A stretch of 28,989 nt of DNA from a virus, in the IMG/VR virus record IMGVR_UViG_3300042402_005664, positions 1 through 28,989 of that record. One strand, 5' to 3'. A program made the position numbers and the translations under genes. A model generated the notes under the pieces. The model did not search any database. It saw only the letters and a list, made by a program, of their open reading frames with translations, and was not told the DNA's origin. Shown here piece by piece: positions 2,719 through 14,750 of the stretch; the first letter of the stretch is position 1; every line of letters starts with the position of its first letter.

Positions 2719-4302
2719 TTAGCGCATGATTGATATGAATGGCATGGGTTCTACAATGTTGTCACTGTGATCTTTGAGATGCGTGTCAAGATCAGCATGA
2801 TAGGTTTGCAGCATCAACAACATACGCACTGCCAGCAAGCAGGCCATGACCAAATCATCAGTTTCGCCAGGTTTAGCAGCATAACTGGTTCCGTTGGCTA
2901 CAAATGTTTTGAGCTCAGAAACCAACATCCTGCTGTTGATTTTCATACGTTGAGATTCTATCAAAATTTTCAGTTTGTTGCAGGCCGTTATTTTGCTTTT
3001 GTTGGTGGTATTGAATCCTTTGCGAAACCGGCGCCCTGTGCTGCCCGTCACTGAATTGTCACTCAAAAAATACCCTGGAATGTTTTCTTCGCCGTATTCA
3101 GCTATGCTGATCAGTGCTGCTTCGCCCAGCGTGTTGTTTTCCACTGAGTAGTAGATGCTTTTTTCATCGTTGACCACTGCATGCAGTTCTTTCACAATGT
3201 CTGCCAGTATTTTGACCTGTGTAGGCACATCAGTTTTGTTGTGACGCCATTCGGCAATTTGATCTGTGGTACGAGCATCAAAAACCTGTATGGCAGCAGG
3301 GTCGCCGCCAGTGCCCAGGCTAGGGTCCAGTGCAACCACATACATGCCTTCTTTGACAGGATTCTTGTACCAGCGTACCTGACCTGTTCGGCGTATGGGC
3401 TCGATGCCTTCTAAATCCATGAGACGGATAGGATTGATCAAAGTTTCATCGTTGATAACAAATTCACAGTCCATTTCTCTACGAAAACGTTCTTCGCCCA
3501 GCTGAGCCAATTGTTCTGCGCCCCATTGGTCTCCGCGGTCAGGATGCTCTCGCCAATAGCTTCTAAATGCCTTGAATCCGTTGATGCCCAGCTCTGTGGT
3601 GTTGCCATGTTCATCTGTGGTCTTGTTGGCACCTTTCCACAGAAACGCAAACTGATCTTCATCAGAGTTGGGAGTAGATGTGATGATTGCTTTACCACCA
3701 GTGGCCAGTGTAGGCGATATGGAGGTCCAAAATTCTTTGGCAATGGTGGGTCTCACAAACGCAAACTCGTCAGCATACAGCAGCGAAATACTCATACCTC
3801 GACCAGTGGTCTCGGTGGTGGTCTGGCTCACAATACGTGACCCGTTTTCAAATTCCAGGCTGCCTTTGTTGTAACTGGTGGCACCAGCTCTGATATGATT
3901 TGGGCACAGTTCATAGGCATAGCGTATGCGTTGCATGATCTCTTGGGCACCAGTGTATTTGTGTGCAGCAATGAGGATGGTAGAATCTGGCACAAACATT
4001 GCGTACCACAGCAAGTAGCCAGCGGCCGAAGTTGACTTGCCAGTTTGTCGCGGCATCAACGATATTGAGTATCTGTAGTTGTGATAGGTGGCAATCAGTC
4101 TCTTTTGATAGTCAAAAGGATGATACAGCATCTTGCCGCGGGTGGGATGCTGTATGTAGAAAAAATGATCCATGAAATACAAAGGACCATTGACTGGGTC
4201 TGCACATAGAGCAAATTCAGTGAGCTCTTGCTCGCTGTATACTTCTCTGCGGTGCGGCGCTTTGACCAGTACAGTTTCAAGATTGTTTTTGGGACCAATC
4301 AT
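2719..4302 (-). CDS. 17: Terminase large subunit (gp17-type packaging ATPase/nuclease)
   Basis: This 527-aa protein is the DNA-packaging motor of T4-like phages: an N-terminal ATPase that drives DNA into the prohead and a C-terminal RNase H-like nuclease that cuts concatemers. Walker A is MPRQTGKST (83-91) and Walker B with catalytic Glu is LLYADEF (174-180). The nuclease acidic residues appear as ALDPSLGTGGD (D326), SVENN (E388) and ETDDLVMA (D482/D483). T4 gp17 has 610 residues; this one is shorter but has all core motifs. Its start overlaps the end of the SGNH gene by 26 bp, so the two are cotranscribed and probably translationally coupled. The small subunit gp16 is about 10 kb upstream in the same strand block rather than adjacent as in T4. 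Confidence 0.96.
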   Translation of the reverse strand: MIGPKNNLETVLVKAPHRREVYSEQELTEFALCADPVNGPLYFMDHFFYIQHPTRGKMLYHPFDYQKRLIATYHNYRYSISLMPRQTGKSTSAAGYLLWYAMFVPDSTILIAAHKYTGAQEIMQRIRYAYELCPNHIRAGATSYNKGSLEFENGSRIVSQTTTETTGRGMSISLLYADEFAFVRPTIAKEFWTSISPTLATGGKAIITSTPNSDEDQFAFLWKGANKTTDEHGNTTELGINGFKAFRSYWREHPDRGDQWGAEQLAQLGEERFRREMDCEFVINDETLINPIRLMDLEGIEPIRRTGQVRWYKNPVKEGMYVVALDPSLGTGGDPAAIQVFDARTTDQIAEWRHNKTDVPTQVKILADIVKELHAVVNDEKSIYYSVENNTLGEAALISIAEYGEENIPGYFLSDNSVTGSTGRRFRKGFNTTNKSKITACNKLKILIESQRMKINSRMLVSELKTFVANGTSYAAKPGETDDLVMACLLAVRMLLMLQTYHADLDTHLKDHSDNIVEPMPFISIMR

Positions 4303-8211: not shown

Positions 8212-9789
8212 TTAGTTAGTTAGTTCTTCCCAGCCCAGTTTCCAAAGCAGGTCAGCATTGGCGCTGGTGTAGGCCACTGCTAGAGTCAAAGTGCTGGGTG
8301 TTCCAGCCGCTGTTCTCCATAGTTGCAGACGACGCTTGATGTCTTCGCTGATTTCTACTTCGTCGCGGCTGCTGGACAAGCCAGCATAGACCACAGTACC
8401 ATCAGTGATAACATTGCTGTGTATAGCGGTTTGAACAACTGATCCAACCACATTGCTAAAACTGGCAGTAAAGGTAGCATTTTCAATCAGTTGGAACTGC
8501 CCATATCTTACATCCAGTGACAAAATATCCAGTTGAGACGGTAAGACCACTGCGTCAGGATAGGCTGGATTTAGTCGGATACTGCATAGGGCTGTAACAG
8601 TGTTGGCCGAACTTACTCGTGTTGCAACAGTGTTGTTGGTGACATAGCCAAGTTTGGTAGAGGGTGCAAATCCGCCTTCACTTATCACAGTGCTACAAAT
8701 CTGTTTCATGGTGCTGGCACCTGAGGTAGCACCGGTATTGGTTATTTCATAGCGTGGATTCAGTGTGGCAGTGGTCATGTACACCGTGGTGTTGCCAGGT
8801 TGATTGGCATGTTGGAATGTATGACACACAATGAACTGACCGTTGATCACAAAGCCTGTTCGCACATTGCCCACACCCAACCACTCAACATCACACCAAA
8901 AAATCTGTGTCAATGTGGGATCAAGCGTGATTCCAGATACCCCAGCACCGTTGAGTTGATCTCCGTTCCATGAGGCCTGCGGAATTCTTTCTTCAACAAT
9001 GCTACCTGTTACACTGCTGCGAATCACAAGATTCAAGACAGTGCCCACTGCTTCAAAATAAATGCCGTTGTCGGCTGTGAAATAGCCTACACGCTGTGTT
9101 AGATTTGCTTTGAGTGTGGCCATGGCAAAAGTGTTCATGATCAGCAGACTCTTGCCGGGCTGATAGGCTTGAACTGTTTTGCTTTGTCTGATCACACTAC
9201 TACCACTGGTCGCAGATACATTTAGATTGAATGAACTTTCATTGGCCACATACACCACATTGCCGCCTGTGGCTGTGATGTTTGAAAATTGATCACCGTC
9301 TATGTAACGATTTTGACTGTCAAACAGGGTAAAAGGATTGCTTACACGCAGTCGACCAAATGCATCAAGATTAGTGCCGCCGATAGTTGTGGCAACATTA
9401 CCACCAGTGATCGTAGCATTTACATTTCCGTCTACAGTCAAACTGCCTCCGCCGTCAACCACTGTGACACTGGCGGTGATACCTGCTATGTTTCCTGTGA
9501 TGCCAACATTGCCTGCTGTAATAGACACATTGGCGTTGCCAGTAACTACCCAAGGATTTGTGCCTTGGAACACTGTGACGTTGCCTGATTGAACAGTTAC
9601 TGGCAGTGAGTTGCCACTGATGTTGACATTGCCCAAACTGCCAATGGCCACATTTCCCACTGATACATTACCAACAAGCACAGCGTTGGTACGAACAAAA
9701 ACGTTGCCTGTGGCTTCGTCAAGCTCTAGTGCTTGGTTGATGTTGCGTAGATACCACGGTGCTACCTCTGTTGGTTCTGGTACGGCCAT
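8212..9789 (-). CDS. Virion structural protein with GN-rich beta-repeat N terminus (525 aa)
   Basis: Residues about 36-140 are a run of short valine/glycine/asparagine-rich units (GNV, SGN, TGN and similar) that suggest a beta-helical or collagen-like fibrous stalk. This leads into LDAFGRLRVSNPFTLFDSQN (141-160), a sequence type I associate with structural proteins of T4-like aquatic phages. The remainder looks like a beta-rich globular domain. The start ATG overlaps the stop of the preceding gene (TAATG), and the Shine-Dalgarno AAAGGA is inside that gene's last codons. It is probably a fibre, decoration or receptor-binding component, but which one I cannot tell. The repetitive DNA also gives spurious frames on the other strand. 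Confidence 0.7.
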   Translation of the reverse strand: MAVPEPTEVAPWYLRNINQALELDEATGNVFVRTNAVLVGNVSVGNVAIGSLGNVNISGNSLPVTVQSGNVTVFQGTNPWVVTGNANVSITAGNVGITGNIAGITASVTVVDGGGSLTVDGNVNATITGGNVATTIGGTNLDAFGRLRVSNPFTLFDSQNRYIDGDQFSNITATGGNVVYVANESSFNLNVSATSGSSVIRQSKTVQAYQPGKSLLIMNTFAMATLKANLTQRVGYFTADNGIYFEAVGTVLNLVIRSSVTGSIVEERIPQASWNGDQLNGAGVSGITLDPTLTQIFWCDVEWLGVGNVRTGFVINGQFIVCHTFQHANQPGNTTVYMTTATLNPRYEITNTGATSGASTMKQICSTVISEGGFAPSTKLGYVTNNTVATRVSSANTVTALCSIRLNPAYPDAVVLPSQLDILSLDVRYGQFQLIENATFTASFSNVVGSVVQTAIHSNVITDGTVVYAGLSSSRDEVEISEDIKRRLQLWRTAAGTPSTLTLAVAYTSANADLLWKLGWEELTN

Positions 9790-10181
9790 TATCGTGGGTA
9801 TCCTTTGAATGCTATAACGGGGCTGGCCGTGCCAGTGGCAGGAGGTTCTTTGCTGTCAGCGGTAGAAACCAATTTTTTACCACCAGGTGTGCGAGTCATT
9901 TTCAATGCCAAGTCTATCACTGCATCAACATTGGAATCAAAGCCTGATATCACGCCGTGCTCGCCAAATGCAGTTTCTGGCTGCCAGTCAATGATATCTT
10001 TGTCCAGGATCTGTTGATCTTTGCCTAGGTCACTGCGAGCACGAGCCATGGCCACGCCAAATCTGTAGTTGCGATACGGGTCTGATGCACTGAGCCCTGG
10101 CATGATATAAGTGTAACGCATGGGCTCAGCTATCTCTGGTGGCAGCTCGCGTTGTTCTGCAACAAATTCACGAGCTCTCAT
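9789..10181 (-). CDS. Small protein with capsid-targeting-like N terminus (130 aa)
   Basis: Function unknown. It begins MRAREFVAEQRE, close to the T4 internal-protein capsid targeting sequence (MKTYQEFIAE) with a candidate V-A-E|Q protease site. It ends SPVIAFKGYPR, nearly the same as the end of the next gene upstream. The middle is unrelated to that neighbour and contains a conserved-looking stretch GVISGFDSNVDAVIDLALKM. The start ATG overlaps the stop of the 124-aa gene (ATGA), with AAAGGA 8 nt upstream. Packaging inside the head with N-terminal processing is inference from the motif. Confidence 0.7.
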   Translation of the reverse strand: MRAREFVAEQRELPPEIAEPMRYTYIMPGLSASDPYRNYRFGVAMARARSDLGKDQQILDKDIIDWQPETAFGEHGVISGFDSNVDAVIDLALKMTRTPGGKKLVSTADSKEPPATGTASPVIAFKGYPR

Positions 10182-10552
10182 CTGGGATATCCTTTGAAAG
10201 CTCGCATAGGGCTGCTAACATTTACCGCAGGATGTTCTTGACTGCGCATGTCTCCGCTGTTGAGGTCATGATGTTTGCTGCCCACCGCTTTGTAAGCCAG
10301 TTTCAACATGTCAGCTTCTTGCTGGGTGTAAGGAGCAGCAACGTCGTGCCGGCCGGCCCAGCTTTCGCCGTCAATTTCATTGGTAAATGTTTGTCCGTCA
10401 TTGCTGGCCACAGCCATCATGATACGGTTTAGTTCATAGATACGATCAGCAAACTGCCCGTCACGAAATTTGTGTAGGCCGCGGGTAGCATAGCGCAACC
10501 TGGTACTGATGTCGCCTACTTTTTTCTCAGCAAGAAATTCGCGGGCTCGCAC
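10178..10552 (-). CDS. Small protein with capsid-targeting-like N terminus (124 aa), GTG start
   Basis: Function unknown. Translation most likely starts at GTG 10552-10550, giving MRAREFLAEKKVGD. A strong GGAGGT Shine-Dalgarno lies 8 nt upstream, inside the last codons of the 97-aa gene. The N terminus matches the T4 capsid-targeting pattern with a candidate L-A-E|K protease site. The C terminus is SPMRAFKGYPR, shared with the following gene, while the middle (a helical region with ELNRIMMAVASNDG and QQEADMLKLAYKAVG) is different. This pairing of shared ends and different cores suggests modular cargo proteins. Confidence 0.7.
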   Translation of the reverse strand: MRAREFLAEKKVGDISTRLRYATRGLHKFRDGQFADRIYELNRIMMAVASNDGQTFTNEIDGESWAGRHDVAAPYTQQEADMLKLAYKAVGSKHHDLNSGDMRSQEHPAVNVSSPMRAFKGYPR

Positions 10553-10554
10553 AA

Positions 10555-10848
10555 TCAGCTACCTCCGCCAATCACTCCAGATTGAGCTGAACTTGCTGTG
10601 CCCAATTCCAATGCAGTAAACGAGCTTGCACACACAATGGTCACTTTGTTGCCAGCTCCTACATAGGTTTGGTACACTGTGTTGGCAGGAATGTTGATGG
10701 GTGCAGAATACAAGTTGCCCACAGCATTGGCAGTGCCCAGTGCAGTGGCATACACCTGCAGCCAAGCATTGGCAGCGTTGGTGCTGATTTCTATCCGGTC
10801 AGTGTACACTGTGGCATTGCTGAGCGAGGTATAAACGTTGGCGGCCAT
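10555..10848 (-). CDS. Small probable virion protein (97 aa)
   Basis: Unrecognised. The sequence is rich in Ala, Ser, Thr, Asn and Val with few charged residues, and looks like a single small beta-sandwich of the kind found in phage decoration or fibre-associated proteins. Its ATG overlaps the stop of the 48-aa gene (TAATG), and its last codons (GGGS) supply the Shine-Dalgarno of the next gene. It lies among virion genes, so a minor structural role is likely. Confidence 0.6.
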   Translation of the reverse strand: MAANVYTSLSNATVYTDRIEISTNAANAWLQVYATALGTANAVGNLYSAPINIPANTVYQTYVGAGNKVTIVCASSFTALELGTASSAQSGVIGGGS

Positions 10849-10994
10849 TATTTGGATTCTTTCTTGGGTTCGTAGGGTTTGAACAATTGCGTGGTCTGTT
10901 GCAACACAGGTGGCACACTCTGCTCAGATTTGTACACTGGCTGCTGAGTGGGTTTGGCCTGTGCGGCATAGCTGTTTTGATAGGGTGGCATCAT
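10848..10994 (-). CDS. 48-aa proline/glutamine-rich peptide
   Basis: A short frame starting MMPPYQNSYAAQAKPTQQ and ending YEPKKESK. It has an excellent ribosome-binding site (TAAGGAGA, 6 nt before the ATG at 10994). It fits exactly between its neighbours: its stop overlaps the next ATG as TAATG, and the preceding gene ends 11 bp upstream. That packing and the Shine-Dalgarno are strong evidence that it is translated. The sequence is disordered and of unknown function. Confidence 0.65.
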   Translation of the reverse strand: MMPPYQNSYAAQAKPTQQPVYKSEQSVPPVLQQTTQLFKPYEPKKESK

Positions 10995-11005
10995 TTTGCA
11001 TCTCC

Positions 11006-11707
11006 TTACCAAGCGCGGCAACTCCAGTAACGTGCTTTCCAGCGAGGTCCTGGATTGTCACAGTTGTGTCTAGCACGAAAGTTTTTTCTACGACCAGGTA
11101 TGCTTTTCTTGATCTTCATGCCTTTTTGACCAAAGTTCACTTTGACCACATTGCCTTTGGGTCCACGCACATACACTTTGCTTTTCTTGACATCGCCTGC
11201 CATGGGCTTGCCCAGTGGTACTTCACGACCCTGATACTTGGCTTCGTCCATGCTCTGACCTTTGTTGGCCTCCATGTAGTCGGCCGCAGTGTCTATATAG
11301 TCCGATGCTTTGGTAATTTTCATCTGCACCCACTCAGGCATGTTGTCATTGTCATCCAGCATGCCATTGAGTCTGCGAGCAGCACGCACAATGGTCTGCA
11401 ATTGATCTTTGGCTTGATCACCTTCGTAATCATACTCGCCTTGATCAACCATGTCTACTTGATCGCCATCGCTGTCTGCTTCATAGTCTTGGCTTTCGGT
11501 GATAGATTCGCCCAAATAACCATAGTTTTCCAACAGGTTCATGCCTGCTTCGTCGGCGTAGATAACAATACCGTCAACAGTTTCGTCACAGATCCAAGTT
11601 TCAAACAGGGTTTCTTCGCGAATATTGATCGCAAAGTAGTCGCCGCGCACAGGTTGACTGTAGGCACGCTCTGATTCAGCAATGTATTCGCGAAGACTTT
11701 TCATCAT
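11006..11707 (-). CDS. Probable packaged head protein with capsid-targeting N terminus and conserved basic C-terminal domain
   Basis: The 233-aa protein starts MMKSLREYIAESERAY, an excellent match to the T4 capsid targeting sequence, with a candidate cleavage at I-A-E|S. An acidic stretch follows (about 70-100). A helical block PEWVQMKITKASDYIDTAAD (124-143) comes next. The C-terminal domain from about 157 is strongly basic and runs GREVPLGKPMAGD to RARHNCDNPGPRWKARYWSC (C216, C230), a pattern shared among aquatic T4-like phages in proteins of unknown function (DUF6321-like, from memory). Basic, Cys/Trp-bearing ends could bind DNA. The Shine-Dalgarno AAGGG lies within the last codons of the upstream gene. 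Internal or injected protein is the best guess. Confidence 0.7.
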   Translation of the reverse strand: MMKSLREYIAESERAYSQPVRGDYFAINIREETLFETWICDETVDGIVIYADEAGMNLLENYGYLGESITESQDYEADSDGDQVDMVDQGEYDYEGDQAKDQLQTIVRAARRLNGMLDDNDNMPEWVQMKITKASDYIDTAADYMEANKGQSMDEAKYQGREVPLGKPMAGDVKKSKVYVRGPKGNVVKVNFGQKGMKIKKSIPGRRKNFRARHNCDNPGPRWKARYWSCRAW

Positions 11708-11708
11708 T

Positions 11709-13631
11709 TTAGCCCTTGTATTGTTTCCACAGACGTGTTATGTCAAGAATACTTTCTTCAACTTTGTTGTCTTCTTTGTCTTTAACGGCTTTTTTCATTG
11801 GCTCTTTTTTGTCACCATCTTTGTCCATGTCCAAGAAGTCAGGTTTTTTACCTTCGGCTACACCGGCCATTTCACGCAGTCTGGCCAATTCATCTTCGCC
11901 TTCGTAGGTCATCATGCGATTTTCTTGGCCTGCAATCACAGGCACAGTGGTTTGACCAGTGCTCTTGGGTTTGTTGAGTCCACCAGAATATTGCAGTGCG
12001 TCATTGCTCTGCACTTTGTCTGTAGGCCATTCAGGCTGATTTTCGTCAACTTGTTCGTCAGGGCTGCCACAAGTTTCTGCGTTGGCATCGCTGCCAACTC
12101 CAGCCATCTTGAGCAATTTGCCCAACATCATGGCATCGTCGTCTGTGGCTGTCACTGTTAACGATTTGGAAGGGCCTCCGTGCATGTCATTGTTCATGCT
12201 CATTGAAATGTTCATTGACTCGGCAATCATTTGTTCTAGCTCACGATTCATTGAGTCGTAAATGCCTTTGCCAAATTGCATGCCGCTTTTGCCTGCTTTG
12301 GGCGCAGCAGTGGCCACACTACCTGACACTGTGGTTTCTTCTACTTCTTCTTTTTTCTTGCCTTCAGGCTTTTTCTTCTCAGGCAGGCCTTTGTGCTTGG
12401 TAGCAGCAAAGTCTTCTGCGTCTTTCTTGCCCATTGACTTAGCCACTTTGGATACTTCTTTGCTGGCAGGCTTTTCACCTTTTTGTGCAGCATGGACCAT
12501 GCCCATGAAACGCTGTTGCTTTTTGCTCACTGCTTTTTCATCCACTTGTTCAGCACCATCGGCCGCTTTGCTGACTTTGTATCCGGCTTTTTTCAACATG
12601 GCCATGGCCTGTTTGATTTCTTCACTGTCGTGTTCGGCTTCTTTGGTCATAAGTTTTGACTTGCCACTTGGTCCCTTGGCACCCATGCTCTTGCCTGTGC
12701 CTTTGGGACGGCCACGACCGCGTTTTTCGCCATCTGCTGGAGCGTCATCACCTGTGTCAGTTTCGCCTGTCTTGGCATCGTATCTGCGAGTGTGCTTGAT
12801 GCCAGTGGCAGTTTTTTCAATTTCGCCTTTGGCGCCTTGCACCTTGTGGCCAGCTTTGACTTCGCCACGACGTTGGTCAACAGCTTTGATCATGTCATCC
12901 CAGCCTTCGTCAGTTTTTTCTTGTTTGCCGCCTTGGCGCAGCATGGCAAAATCATTGGCATCAAGTTTACCGTTGTTGTTTTTGTCTAGTTTCTTCTGGC
13001 CACCACGGAGTGCACCACGCATGGCTTCAGCAGCCACATCACCCAGCATCTCATCTACTTCTTTTTTGGCACCAGCAATTTTGTCAGCAAAAGTGACTTT
13101 GTCTGCTGGAGGTGCCAGCTTGGCAAAACTTTTTTGTTTTGCCGTCATGGGTTTTTCTTCCAGCGGGCCGTATTCTTCTTTGGCCATTTTTTTGTTCTTG
13201 ATCTCGTTCATGCCGCCTGGACCAGCAAAATTACTGACTTGACTGTCTTGATGCATGGGCGAGTAATTGCCTGGCTTACGTCCAGTTTGTGGAACTCCTA
13301 CATCTCGCTGCAAATTCTTCAACAGCTTTTCATCGCCAGGAGCAACTACATCCATGGCCTTGGTGGCTGCTTTTTTTATGCCGCCGCCAATGGTCTTAAC
13401 AATAGATCCTAGACCTTCTTCTACTGAATCGTCGTATTTGTTGTATTTGTCTCTGATCTTGTCAAGATCTTTGCCTTGACGACCAGCTTTGGCCAAGGCC
13501 TGCATGCCTTCTTTGCCATATTTTTCAATGCCTTTGGCATGGCGACTCATGTCGCGCTCATTGAGTTTTTGAGTCACTGGCTTGTCTGCAATGTCAGTTA
13601 GACGTTTGTTTAGTTCATAGAAAAAAGTCAT
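11709..13631 (-). CDS. Large mosaic virion/internal protein with EF-hand, AT-hook and DUF3008-like segments (640 aa)
   Basis: The protein is Lys/Ala/Glu-rich and mostly disordered, with recognisable modules in order. An EF-hand-type loop DKNNNGKLDANDF is at 216-228. An AT-hook KRGRGRPKG is at 303-311. A DUF3008-like segment (SKKQQRFMGMVHAAQKGE to ATKHKGLPEK) covers about 369-419. IAES is at 469-472, GVAEG at 590-594, and an acidic DMDKDGDKKEP calcium-loop-like motif at 601-611. The N terminus (MTFFYELNKRLTDIADKP) lacks the capsid-targeting pattern. The AT-hook suggests minor-groove DNA binding and the VAE/IAE sites suggest head-protease processing. It follows the 202-aa gene by 4 bp, with GAGG 8 nt before the ATG. 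A packaged DNA-binding protein is plausible but unproven. Confidence 0.75.
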   Translation of the reverse strand: MTFFYELNKRLTDIADKPVTQKLNERDMSRHAKGIEKYGKEGMQALAKAGRQGKDLDKIRDKYNKYDDSVEEGLGSIVKTIGGGIKKAATKAMDVVAPGDEKLLKNLQRDVGVPQTGRKPGNYSPMHQDSQVSNFAGPGGMNEIKNKKMAKEEYGPLEEKPMTAKQKSFAKLAPPADKVTFADKIAGAKKEVDEMLGDVAAEAMRGALRGGQKKLDKNNNGKLDANDFAMLRQGGKQEKTDEGWDDMIKAVDQRRGEVKAGHKVQGAKGEIEKTATGIKHTRRYDAKTGETDTGDDAPADGEKRGRGRPKGTGKSMGAKGPSGKSKLMTKEAEHDSEEIKQAMAMLKKAGYKVSKAADGAEQVDEKAVSKKQQRFMGMVHAAQKGEKPASKEVSKVAKSMGKKDAEDFAATKHKGLPEKKKPEGKKKEEVEETTVSGSVATAAPKAGKSGMQFGKGIYDSMNRELEQMIAESMNISMSMNNDMHGGPSKSLTVTATDDDAMMLGKLLKMAGVGSDANAETCGSPDEQVDENQPEWPTDKVQSNDALQYSGGLNKPKSTGQTTVPVIAGQENRMMTYEGEDELARLREMAGVAEGKKPDFLDMDKDGDKKEPMKKAVKDKEDNKVEESILDITRLWKQYKG

Positions 13632-13635
13632 GTTA

Positions 13636-14244
13636 TCATCCTCGAGGTTGGGCGCCAGTGGCTGGCTTGGGTGGTCGTTTGATATTGGTCATAGGGCTGC
13701 GTGTGCCCTGTGGCAAATCATTACTGGTCTTGGCAGCAGGGGTCTTACCGCCTGCCACTGTAAAGTCTGAACGATATTGATTTTGTAACACCACATGATT
13801 GTGCGCTTCAACACCGTAGTCCTTTTTCAGACCATCTTGTACTTTGTTGTTTTTGGGATAGTCAGTGTTGGCCAACAGATCTTTGTTTTCAGTTTCAACT
13901 CGGTCTGCTTCGTCAACTAAACCGTCAACATAATCTTGAGTCTGCATCACGACAAGATTGGGATTGCCGCCCATGAGTTGATACAGTTGTTTGATTTGAG
14001 GCTCAATGGCTGGATAACGAAAACTCACATCAAACATGGTCACAGCATCATTTTGATTGTTAGGAAAGTCTGTGAGAATTTTTTGTATGGGCGTGACCTT
14101 CACTTCGCCCATCTTCACAGGATCAAATTGATCCAGTTTGGATTTGAGGTCACGAACTTGTTCGTCCGGAATGCGCCCGCACAGCTTGATACGATAATCG
14201 TATGTGCGTTCACTTTCTGCTAGATATTTGGCAAATGATTTCAT
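13636..14244 (-). CDS. Probable head/internal protein with capsid-targeting N terminus (202 aa)
   Basis: It begins MKSFAKYLAESERTYDYRIK, matching the T4 capsid-targeting pattern with a candidate L-A-E|S cleavage, nearly identical in layout to the 233-aa protein nearby. The body (KLCGRIPDEQVRDLKSKLDQ, then TPIQKILTDFP and VVMQTQDYVDGLVDEADR) looks like an alpha/beta domain. I have seen this kind of protein next to head genes of aquatic T4-like phages, but its function is unknown. It has its own late-promoter motif about 18 nt upstream and an AGGAA ribosome-binding site. Candidate packaged protein or prohead core component. Confidence 0.7.
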   Translation of the reverse strand: MKSFAKYLAESERTYDYRIKLCGRIPDEQVRDLKSKLDQFDPVKMGEVKVTPIQKILTDFPNNQNDAVTMFDVSFRYPAIEPQIKQLYQLMGGNPNLVVMQTQDYVDGLVDEADRVETENKDLLANTDYPKNNKVQDGLKKDYGVEAHNHVVLQNQYRSDFTVAGGKTPAAKTSNDLPQGTRSPMTNIKRPPKPATGAQPRG

Positions 14245-14261: not shown

Positions 14262-14268
14262 TATTTAT
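14262..14268 (-). promoter_or_regulatory. Late promoter motif ATAAATA upstream of the 202-aa gene
   Basis: The minus strand reads ATAAATA, overlapping the TAA stop of gp16 and lying 17 nt before the ATG at 14244. A short leader with the Shine-Dalgarno AGGAA follows. It would let the internal-protein cluster be transcribed independently of the tail genes upstream. Confidence 0.5.
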
Positions 14269-14750
14269 TCATTTTGCGTTTTTTGATTCTTACCCAGAAT
14301 ACGCTCCAACAGTTCGTTGCGACTGAGCACATGCCCAGTGCCTTGTTGTGGTGTGGCTGCATCCGGAGGTTGTTGTTGATCCAGTCTGGCTTTTTTCAGC
14401 TGAAGGTCAATCATTTTGAGTTTTTTGTCTAGTTTGGCTGTTTTGGCAGTGATGGCATGACCCAACATGTTAGACGCCACTGAAAAAATCTCTGATGCAA
14501 AGCGGCTGTCCACTTGCATGCCCAGATCCATGAGATCTCGATAGCTGTCAGTGGCCAAGCCAGCCAACTCATCCATTTCCTGGTCAGTGGCGTCTAGACC
14601 ACGCACAGCCGGCAGAGCTGAATCAATTTTGTCTATGACCTGATCAATGTCTTGAATCAGTGCACGATTTTCAGCCAAATTGGGCACAGCGGCTGCAACT
14701 TCTTGATCAGTAGGTGGCAGGTCAAACAATTCTTCCAGTTTTCGTGTCAT
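14265..14750 (-). CDS. 16: Terminase small subunit (gp16-type)
   Basis: This 161-aa protein is mostly helical. Its central block (about 52-121: DATDQEMDELAGLATDSYRD, then FASEIFSVASNMLGHAITAK and LDKKLKMIDLQLKKARLDQ) matches the pattern of T4-type small terminase subunits, which form rings that recognise DNA and regulate gp17. The disordered N and C termini are also typical. Its ATG overlaps the stop of the homing endonuclease (ATGA), so its translation may be coupled to that gene. In T4, gp16 is next to gp17; here about 10 kb of other genes lie between. Confidence 0.8.
   Translation of the reverse strand: MTRKLEELFDLPPTDQEVAAAVPNLAENRALIQDIDQVIDKIDSALPAVRGLDATDQEMDELAGLATDSYRDLMDLGMQVDSRFASEIFSVASNMLGHAITAKTAKLDKKLKMIDLQLKKARLDQQQPPDAATPQQGTGHVLSRNELLERILGKNQKTQNE

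Follow-up and report, generated by a model that had tools for sequence, protein, structure and literature searches.

A predicted T4-type capsid-targeting propeptide on four proteins of an uncultured phage

In bacteriophage T4, ipII and ipIII start with MKTYQEFIAE. Packaging of T4 internal protein (IP) III requires no more than its first ten residues, of which 4 and 7 are important for targeting and 8 and 10 for processing, and the gp21 protease cleaves after L/I-x-E (PMC9026906). The T4 IPs have no body similarity among themselves, and Ip1-3, the known users of this N-terminal signal, inhibit type IV restriction systems once injected (PMC12373910). T4 Alt is a packaged ADP-ribosyltransferase with an N-terminal propeptide (PMC9026906, PMC5512222), and packaging followed by injection has been proposed for the polyvalent proteins (Iyer et al. 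2017, PMC5512222). The NMNAT-like protein of S-SCSM1 is present in the virion proteome (PMC9602691), and the authors of the S-SCSM1 and S-CREM2 studies leave open whether such enzymes are encapsidated or contaminants (PMC9602691, PMC10665884). Here, we analyse IMGVR_UViG_3300042402_005664, a whole IMG/VR record of 28,989 bp (the window) from an uncultured freshwater-type phage, in which four proteins open with a shared N-terminal segment of 9-10 residues, here called the tag.

It is very probable that the first 9-10 residues of these four proteins constitute a T4-type capsid-targeting propeptide, and the best reading is that the tag is a variant form of the T4 capsid-targeting sequence (CTS) in wide use across this uncultured lineage. 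An earlier note on this DNA had proposed a T4-type capsid-targeting function. That proposal draws support from several sides: the tag agrees, position by position, with the residues that serve targeting and processing in T4; relatives have a prohead protease and a major capsid protein whose predicted cleavage site fits; the tag precedes many bodies that are unrelated to one another; and the S-CREM2 virion proteome determined by mass spectrometry is in accord. During head assembly, the tag would bind the prohead scaffold core by way of a hydrophobic side chain at position 4 (Ala3 in tags of 9 residues) and an aromatic one at position 7, and would carry its protein inside. A gp21-type prohead protease would then cut after the Glu of [FY]-[ILV]-x-E, the body staying in the head with the DNA. 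For the window phage, scaffold binding, cleavage, packaging, injection and any effector activity are steps that we infer.

The tag in the window and in its relatives

On the minus strand of the window, T4-like genes for neck, sheath and tube, for head completion and for the terminase follow the same order as in Pseudomonas phage PA5oct. The four tagged open reading frames (ORFs) fall within an interval bounded on one side by a small-terminase-like gene at 14265-14750 and on the other by the gene for the large terminase at 2719-4302. When every in-frame start of all window ORFs of at least 60 amino acids (aa) was scanned, the pattern ^M[KR].{1,3}[EK][FY][ILV]AE gave exactly 4 matches, which bears out the four minus-strand ORFs and the N-terminal pattern first described and finds no match elsewhere in the window. 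The tag of the gene first given as 233 aa stands, but its start does not: it would read MMKSLREYIAE, and a start at 11704, giving 232 aa, restores the T4 register. The tagged genes are as follows (the slash marks the predicted cut).

13636..14244, minus strand: family A, 202 aa, MKSFAKYLAE/SERTY..., putatively head-associated, predicted ferredoxin-like body; strict motif
14215..14244, minus strand: family A tag MKSFAKYLAE, with F4, Y7, L8 and E10 in T4 register
11006..11704, minus strand: family B, 232 aa, MKSLREYIAE/SERAY..., mosaic body with a C-terminal ARHNC...YWSCRAW module
11675..11704, minus strand: family B tag MKSLREYIAE; strict motif
10178..10552, minus strand: family C copy 1, 124 aa, MRAREFLAE/KK..., GTG start, C-terminus AFKGYPR
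10526..10552, minus strand: family C copy 1 tag MRAREFLAE; strict motif
9789..10181, minus strand: family C copy 2, 130 aa, MRAREFVAE/QR..., start overlapping the stop of copy 1, C-terminus AFKGYPR
10155..10181, minus strand: family C copy 2 tag MRAREFVAE; strict motif

Judged by the T4 CTS criteria, families A and B are in exact register, and family C is one residue shorter, with a near-invariant Ala (Ala3) at the equivalent of residue 4. The bodies had been called unrelated. This holds between A, B and C, the similarity of the 202-aa and 232-aa proteins being confined to the first 15 residues, but not for the 124- and 130-aa proteins, which are tandem paralogs (E 1e-10, 30% identity, common C-terminus), so that unrelated bodies are true of three families and not of four.

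The position of the tag was followed in 161 loci (1.9 Mb, window included) that resemble the window in either the 202-aa protein or the terminase; the search with the large terminase gave 80 viral contigs. In six frames of these loci, R[AST].EF[ILVM].E has 155 matches, and all 155 lie right after a start codon (139 ATG, 16 GTG); for the broader [KR]...[FY][ILV]AE the figure is 93 of 102. Twenty longer contigs hold 52 core matches, 43 of them after ATG, and the reversed-pattern control (ATG form) gave none. Most of the nine non-ATG matches lie about 370 bases ahead of a second match, where one would expect the first paralog with its GTG start. Within the tag, third codon positions are variable, and bases -30 to -1 carry at most 0.33 bits. 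The tag is under protein-level selection.

Among orthologs picked by body profiles, which were built from tagged members and are less biased than alignments chosen by regular expression, residue 10 is E in all 82 distinct intact ORFs of family A, and the site is retained in 125 of 127 for family C. In the family alignments used for column statistics, whose selecting expression constrains columns 2, 7, 8 and 10, family A columns 2, 4, 7, 8 and 10 are near-invariant and 3, 5, 6 and 9 variable; the invariance of E is not evidence here, because the expression demands it, but column 4 was free and is F in 76 of 78 sequences. The family B profile drew in the family of the 640-aa neighbour as well, and 13 of its 51 distinct ORFs fit the tag pattern. 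Among 25 inspected non-fitting ORFs, 4 genuinely begin as family B proteins and carry variant tags, namely YIAE, HINE and, in two cases, YITE; the remaining 21 aligned from profile position 36 onward.

The enzyme and substrate expected of such a system occur together in the relatives. Of the 20 contigs from relatives, a set with several fragments in it, 8 carry Peptidase_S77, the gp21 family; the eight include the contig of L082, whose large terminase is 91% identical to that of the window. Where the propeptide is predicted to end, all eight major capsid proteins examined, encoded beside the protease, read [KR]YLKE/NAS[AS]GST, and that of PA5oct has FLVE/NASAGAT at its predicted cleavage site. 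The tags and the propeptide of the major capsid protein thus appear to have the same cleavage consensus. In 15 of 15 distinct contexts, S-x-G-x-T..G-x-[IV]-A has an xE site immediately before it; seven capsid proteins from relatives are among these contexts, as are the PA5oct capsid protein and small proteins such as a tagged one of 66 aa, MRAQEFIKE/NASVGATSSGSVA, which has the tag fused to a capsid-like junction.

The tag in virion proteomes of cultured phages

A rule derived from T4, M..[FYLIVMW]..[FYW][ILVMF].E, was applied to cultured phages; its residue classes follow the T4 data, and the exact choice of classes is ours. In S-CREM2 this rule, written after a looser pattern search of the same genome, matches 6 of all 219 coding sequences (CDS), 5 of them among the 52 virion proteins identified by mass spectrometry in Table 3 of PMC10665884 (P=0.003); among non-structural CDS only, the enrichment has P=0.0002. 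The tagged virion proteins are the SAM hydrolase gp6, gp13, the kinase gp14, gp136 and the cytidylyltransferase gp154, and the miss is gp175. The position of gp136, between the terminase genes, is that of family A. Going by S-CREM2, the rule seems to hold beyond T4, and it would provide a mechanism for enzyme cargo of debated placement in the virion. Neither "capsid targeting" nor "N-terminal" appears in the S-CREM2 paper text (PMC10665884), and no earlier account of this tag was found in the open-licence literature searched. Separately, the Cas9-like virion nuclease gp12 of S-CREM2 (OR473000.1 7704-10313), which was left out of the rule count, has FASFMAE/A near residues 19-25, behind a short leader.

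Cytidylyltransferase/NMNAT-like proteins of several cyanophages open with CTS-like decamers: MKKFSAFL[NST]E in S-SM1, syn9 and S-RIM2, MKSFGQFLTE in S-SSM7 and MKSFLQFLKE in S-SCSM1; P-TIM40 has MRFLDFIKE. No such decamer was found in the corresponding protein of S-PM2 and HTVC008M. We lean towards the broader proposal that a swappable short N-terminal cargo code operates in wider T4-like phages and accounts for the virion enzymes of cyanophages. Such a code would cover SAM hydrolase, kinase and cytidylyltransferase/NMNAT and possibly the Cas9-like nuclease, and in this uncultured jumbo-type lineage its MRAxEF[ILV]xE form would front dozens of unrelated proteins, sometimes in operons in which every gene is tagged. 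If true, the set of proteins that an uncultured phage injects can be predicted by reading the tag, and a readable tag turns the question of which proteins are injected into a sequence search.

Several observations weigh against reading the tag as a CTS. The window, being a fragment, includes no gene for a protease, a scaffold or a capsid protein, and family C has no match among 50,697 cultured-phage records. S-SCSM1 has three rule matches at any start and two at annotated starts, and in the annotation viewed (60-109 kb, 43.5-46.5 kb and one further stretch) one of the latter two, NMNAT, is flagged as a virion protein; gp030, adjoining the large terminase gene, is not so flagged. The PA5oct homolog of family A, a virion protein by mass spectrometry, lacks the Glu (MKSFRDYYDA). 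A loose T4-derived LxE rule shows no significant enrichment among PA5oct virion proteins: 5 of 13 annotated starts versus 93 of 445, the 93 and the 445 being hand counts (P=0.11). Finally, some tagged GH19 lysozymes have a TAT-like stretch after the tag, which is odd for capsid cargo.

The MRA form of the tag is absent from PA5oct. Three PA5oct regions that resemble tagged bodies or family A lie in annotated structural proteins (0202, 0205, 0349), and a fourth match, spanning 0381/0382, is ambiguous. A lineage-specific rule, which gave 5 of 7 virion proteins in PA5oct, was set aside because some of these very proteins had gone into its making.

Bodies behind the tag and competing explanations

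A tag-only scan of viral contigs, with Arg fixed as AGA, was pooled with the other loci and yielded at least 297 distinct tagged proteins in at least 27 body clusters, formed by single linkage and including one 63-member cluster that is itself mosaic. Tagged genes were found far from the terminase cluster as well. Among 101 listed tagged proteins outside family C, Pfam matches comprise DUF6267 (7), GH19 (6), GNAT families (at most 5) and LysM (2), with single matches to ADPrib_exo_Tox, ART-PolyVal, Kinase-PolyVal, ParB_N and Phage_lysozyme2; four of the listed proteins match a protein-kinase PHROG. The ADP-ribosyltransferase match is L293:6643-7242 (E 9.5e-13). At L203:2414-6639 five consecutive genes with MRAx[ED]F[IL]xE, a GH19 lysozyme among them, each start overlapping the preceding stop, and this stretch looks like an operon of tagged proteins only; L293 and L216 have runs of three tagged genes. 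A TAT-like signal (RRGFL...) stands directly after the tag in L203:2992-3612, which adds a GH19 lysozyme domain, and in L251:3858-4493. GNAT-like and ParB-like proteins behind the same tag have in common a lysine-rich C-terminal module, FADGKVKGKSRPGRVKRSGASC...WCANMKSGRKK (carriers L181:2570-3577 and L183:3856-4437).

The three window families differ in what they may be. Family A matches phrog_14802, "virion structural protein" (E 1.3e-4), from residue 1; its PA5oct homolog EST35_0202 is annotated "structural protein, ESI-MS/MS", and its CBB homolog, annotated structural, has kept LTE at residues 8-10. In its AlphaFold model (pLDDT 70) residues 4-11 form a helix that precedes a ferredoxin-like domain starting at residue 15, so a cut after residue 10 would be predicted to spare the fold. 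A structure search with this model gave no informative or enzyme match. Because the gene is conserved between the terminases and its PA5oct and CBB homologs carry a structural annotation, family A looks like a core head protein. The earlier note had offered packaged effectors or head-core proteins; for the 202-aa protein an effector is unlikely and the core head reading stands, family A being probably a core head protein that would be a standing component of the head or core. Family B matches phrog_7595 over residues 150-232, and its C-terminal module also occurs in Pelagibacter, Roseobacter and Flavobacterium phages, consistent with a mosaic head or cargo protein. The predicted model of family C (pLDDT 64.5) is too weak for a structure search, and genome contigs searched for a host held no relatives of the family. 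Duplicated, fast-evolving and restricted to these phages, family C is a possible cargo candidate injected with the DNA; for it and for the distal tagged genes of relatives, injected cargo would be the more likely role.

The strongest competing explanation, which we regard as possible though less likely than the CTS reading, is that the tagged proteins enter the head and remain there as structural parts, the tag being a motif that binds scaffold or capsid and marks no injected cargo. Family A fits it well, being conserved, located between the terminases, annotated structural in its PA5oct and CBB homologs, and plainly ferredoxin-like in predicted fold with no enzyme match. The tagged bodies of relatives, which include GNAT, ADP-ribosyltransferase, kinase-like and ParB domains, and the SAM hydrolase, kinase and cytidylyltransferase among the tagged virion proteins of S-CREM2 argue in the opposite direction.

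An improbable alternative gives the tag another N-terminal role, such as recruiting a chaperone, marking the protein for degradation or localising it within infected cells. Going by a paper's title, T4 gp23 is reportedly directed to GroEL by its N terminus, and the six tagged proteins that match GH19 lysozyme, some with the TAT-like signal, would suit a role of this kind; the tag nonetheless coincides with the capsid-protein cleavage consensus and with virion proteins detected by mass spectrometry in S-CREM2. That the shared N-terminus is a relic of DNA cassette shuffling (a common ribosome site together with the first codons) that does nothing at the protein level, as tandem genes with stop/start overlap and common ends such as AFKGYPR might suggest, is very improbable and is already contradicted by the start-codon position counts and the codon and upstream statistics, there being little upstream information, free synonymous variation in the tag, and full conservation of the E, F and E codons.

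Neighbouring genes and comparison with known systems

The genes that flank or interrupt the tagged set are the following.

14265..14750, minus strand: small terminase-like protein just upstream of family A; phrog_16202, E 7e-13
11709..13631, minus strand: 640-aa untagged companion with a DUF3008-like module at 367-420
10555..10848, minus strand: 97-aa untagged protein inside the cluster
8212..9789, minus strand: structural protein of 525 aa that borders the cluster on its downstream side; match to phrog_1645 (virion structural protein) at E 2e-101
2719..4302, minus strand: large terminase subunit, 52% identity to PA5oct-group phages

The protein at 14265..14750 matches phrog_445 (terminase small subunit) at E 0.23 only, and its gene position is that of the terminase small subunit in S-CREM2. 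The DUF3008-like module of the 640-aa companion resembles S-SCSM1 gp279, annotated "virion protein"; the likeness of the companion to gp279 and gp280 was judged by eye. In both family C copies (9789-10552) the codons for the AFKGYPR ends hold the ribosome site of the next gene, and these conserved ends may aid cassette exchange. The phrases QGVAE or GVAE[GA] are repeated within the 759-aa (424-2703) and 640-aa window proteins and are present inside tagged proteins of relatives, for example L180:4075-5795; the VAE in them could mark further prohead-protease sites.

A possibly unrecognised further tagged protein of T4 itself is gp61.1 (NC_000866.4 18966-19130), a hypothetical 54-aa protein that begins with the textbook CTS MKTFKEFIKE. 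The closest described system is the CTS of T4 IPI, IPII and IPIII, with which the tag shares an N-terminal 10-mer with a hydrophobic residue at 4, an aromatic residue at 7, Ile, Leu or Val at 8 and Glu at 10, an L/I-x-E protease site, and unrelated bodies behind it. A tblastn search of T4 60-109 kb, the region with ipI, ipII and ipIII, found nothing similar to the tagged bodies at E 1e-3. Unlike the T4 CTS, the dominant form here is shorter by one residue (MRAxEF[ILV]xE), contigs carry up to six ATG-tagged genes, tagged runs of five genes occur, and the bodies are often recognisable enzymes. T4 Alt, likened here by description, has a counterpart in the ADP-ribosyltransferase domains behind the tag in relatives, whereas the window has no ADP-ribosyltransferase. 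ART-PolyVal and Kinase-PolyVal domains among the tagged bodies recall the polyvalent proteins; in contrast to these, the tagged proteins are mostly short, and the passages of PMC5512222 drawn on make no mention of a short tag. With the virion enzymes of S-SCSM1 and S-CREM2 (NMNAT, kinase and SAM hydrolase), the tagged proteins share a start in a CTS-like decamer.

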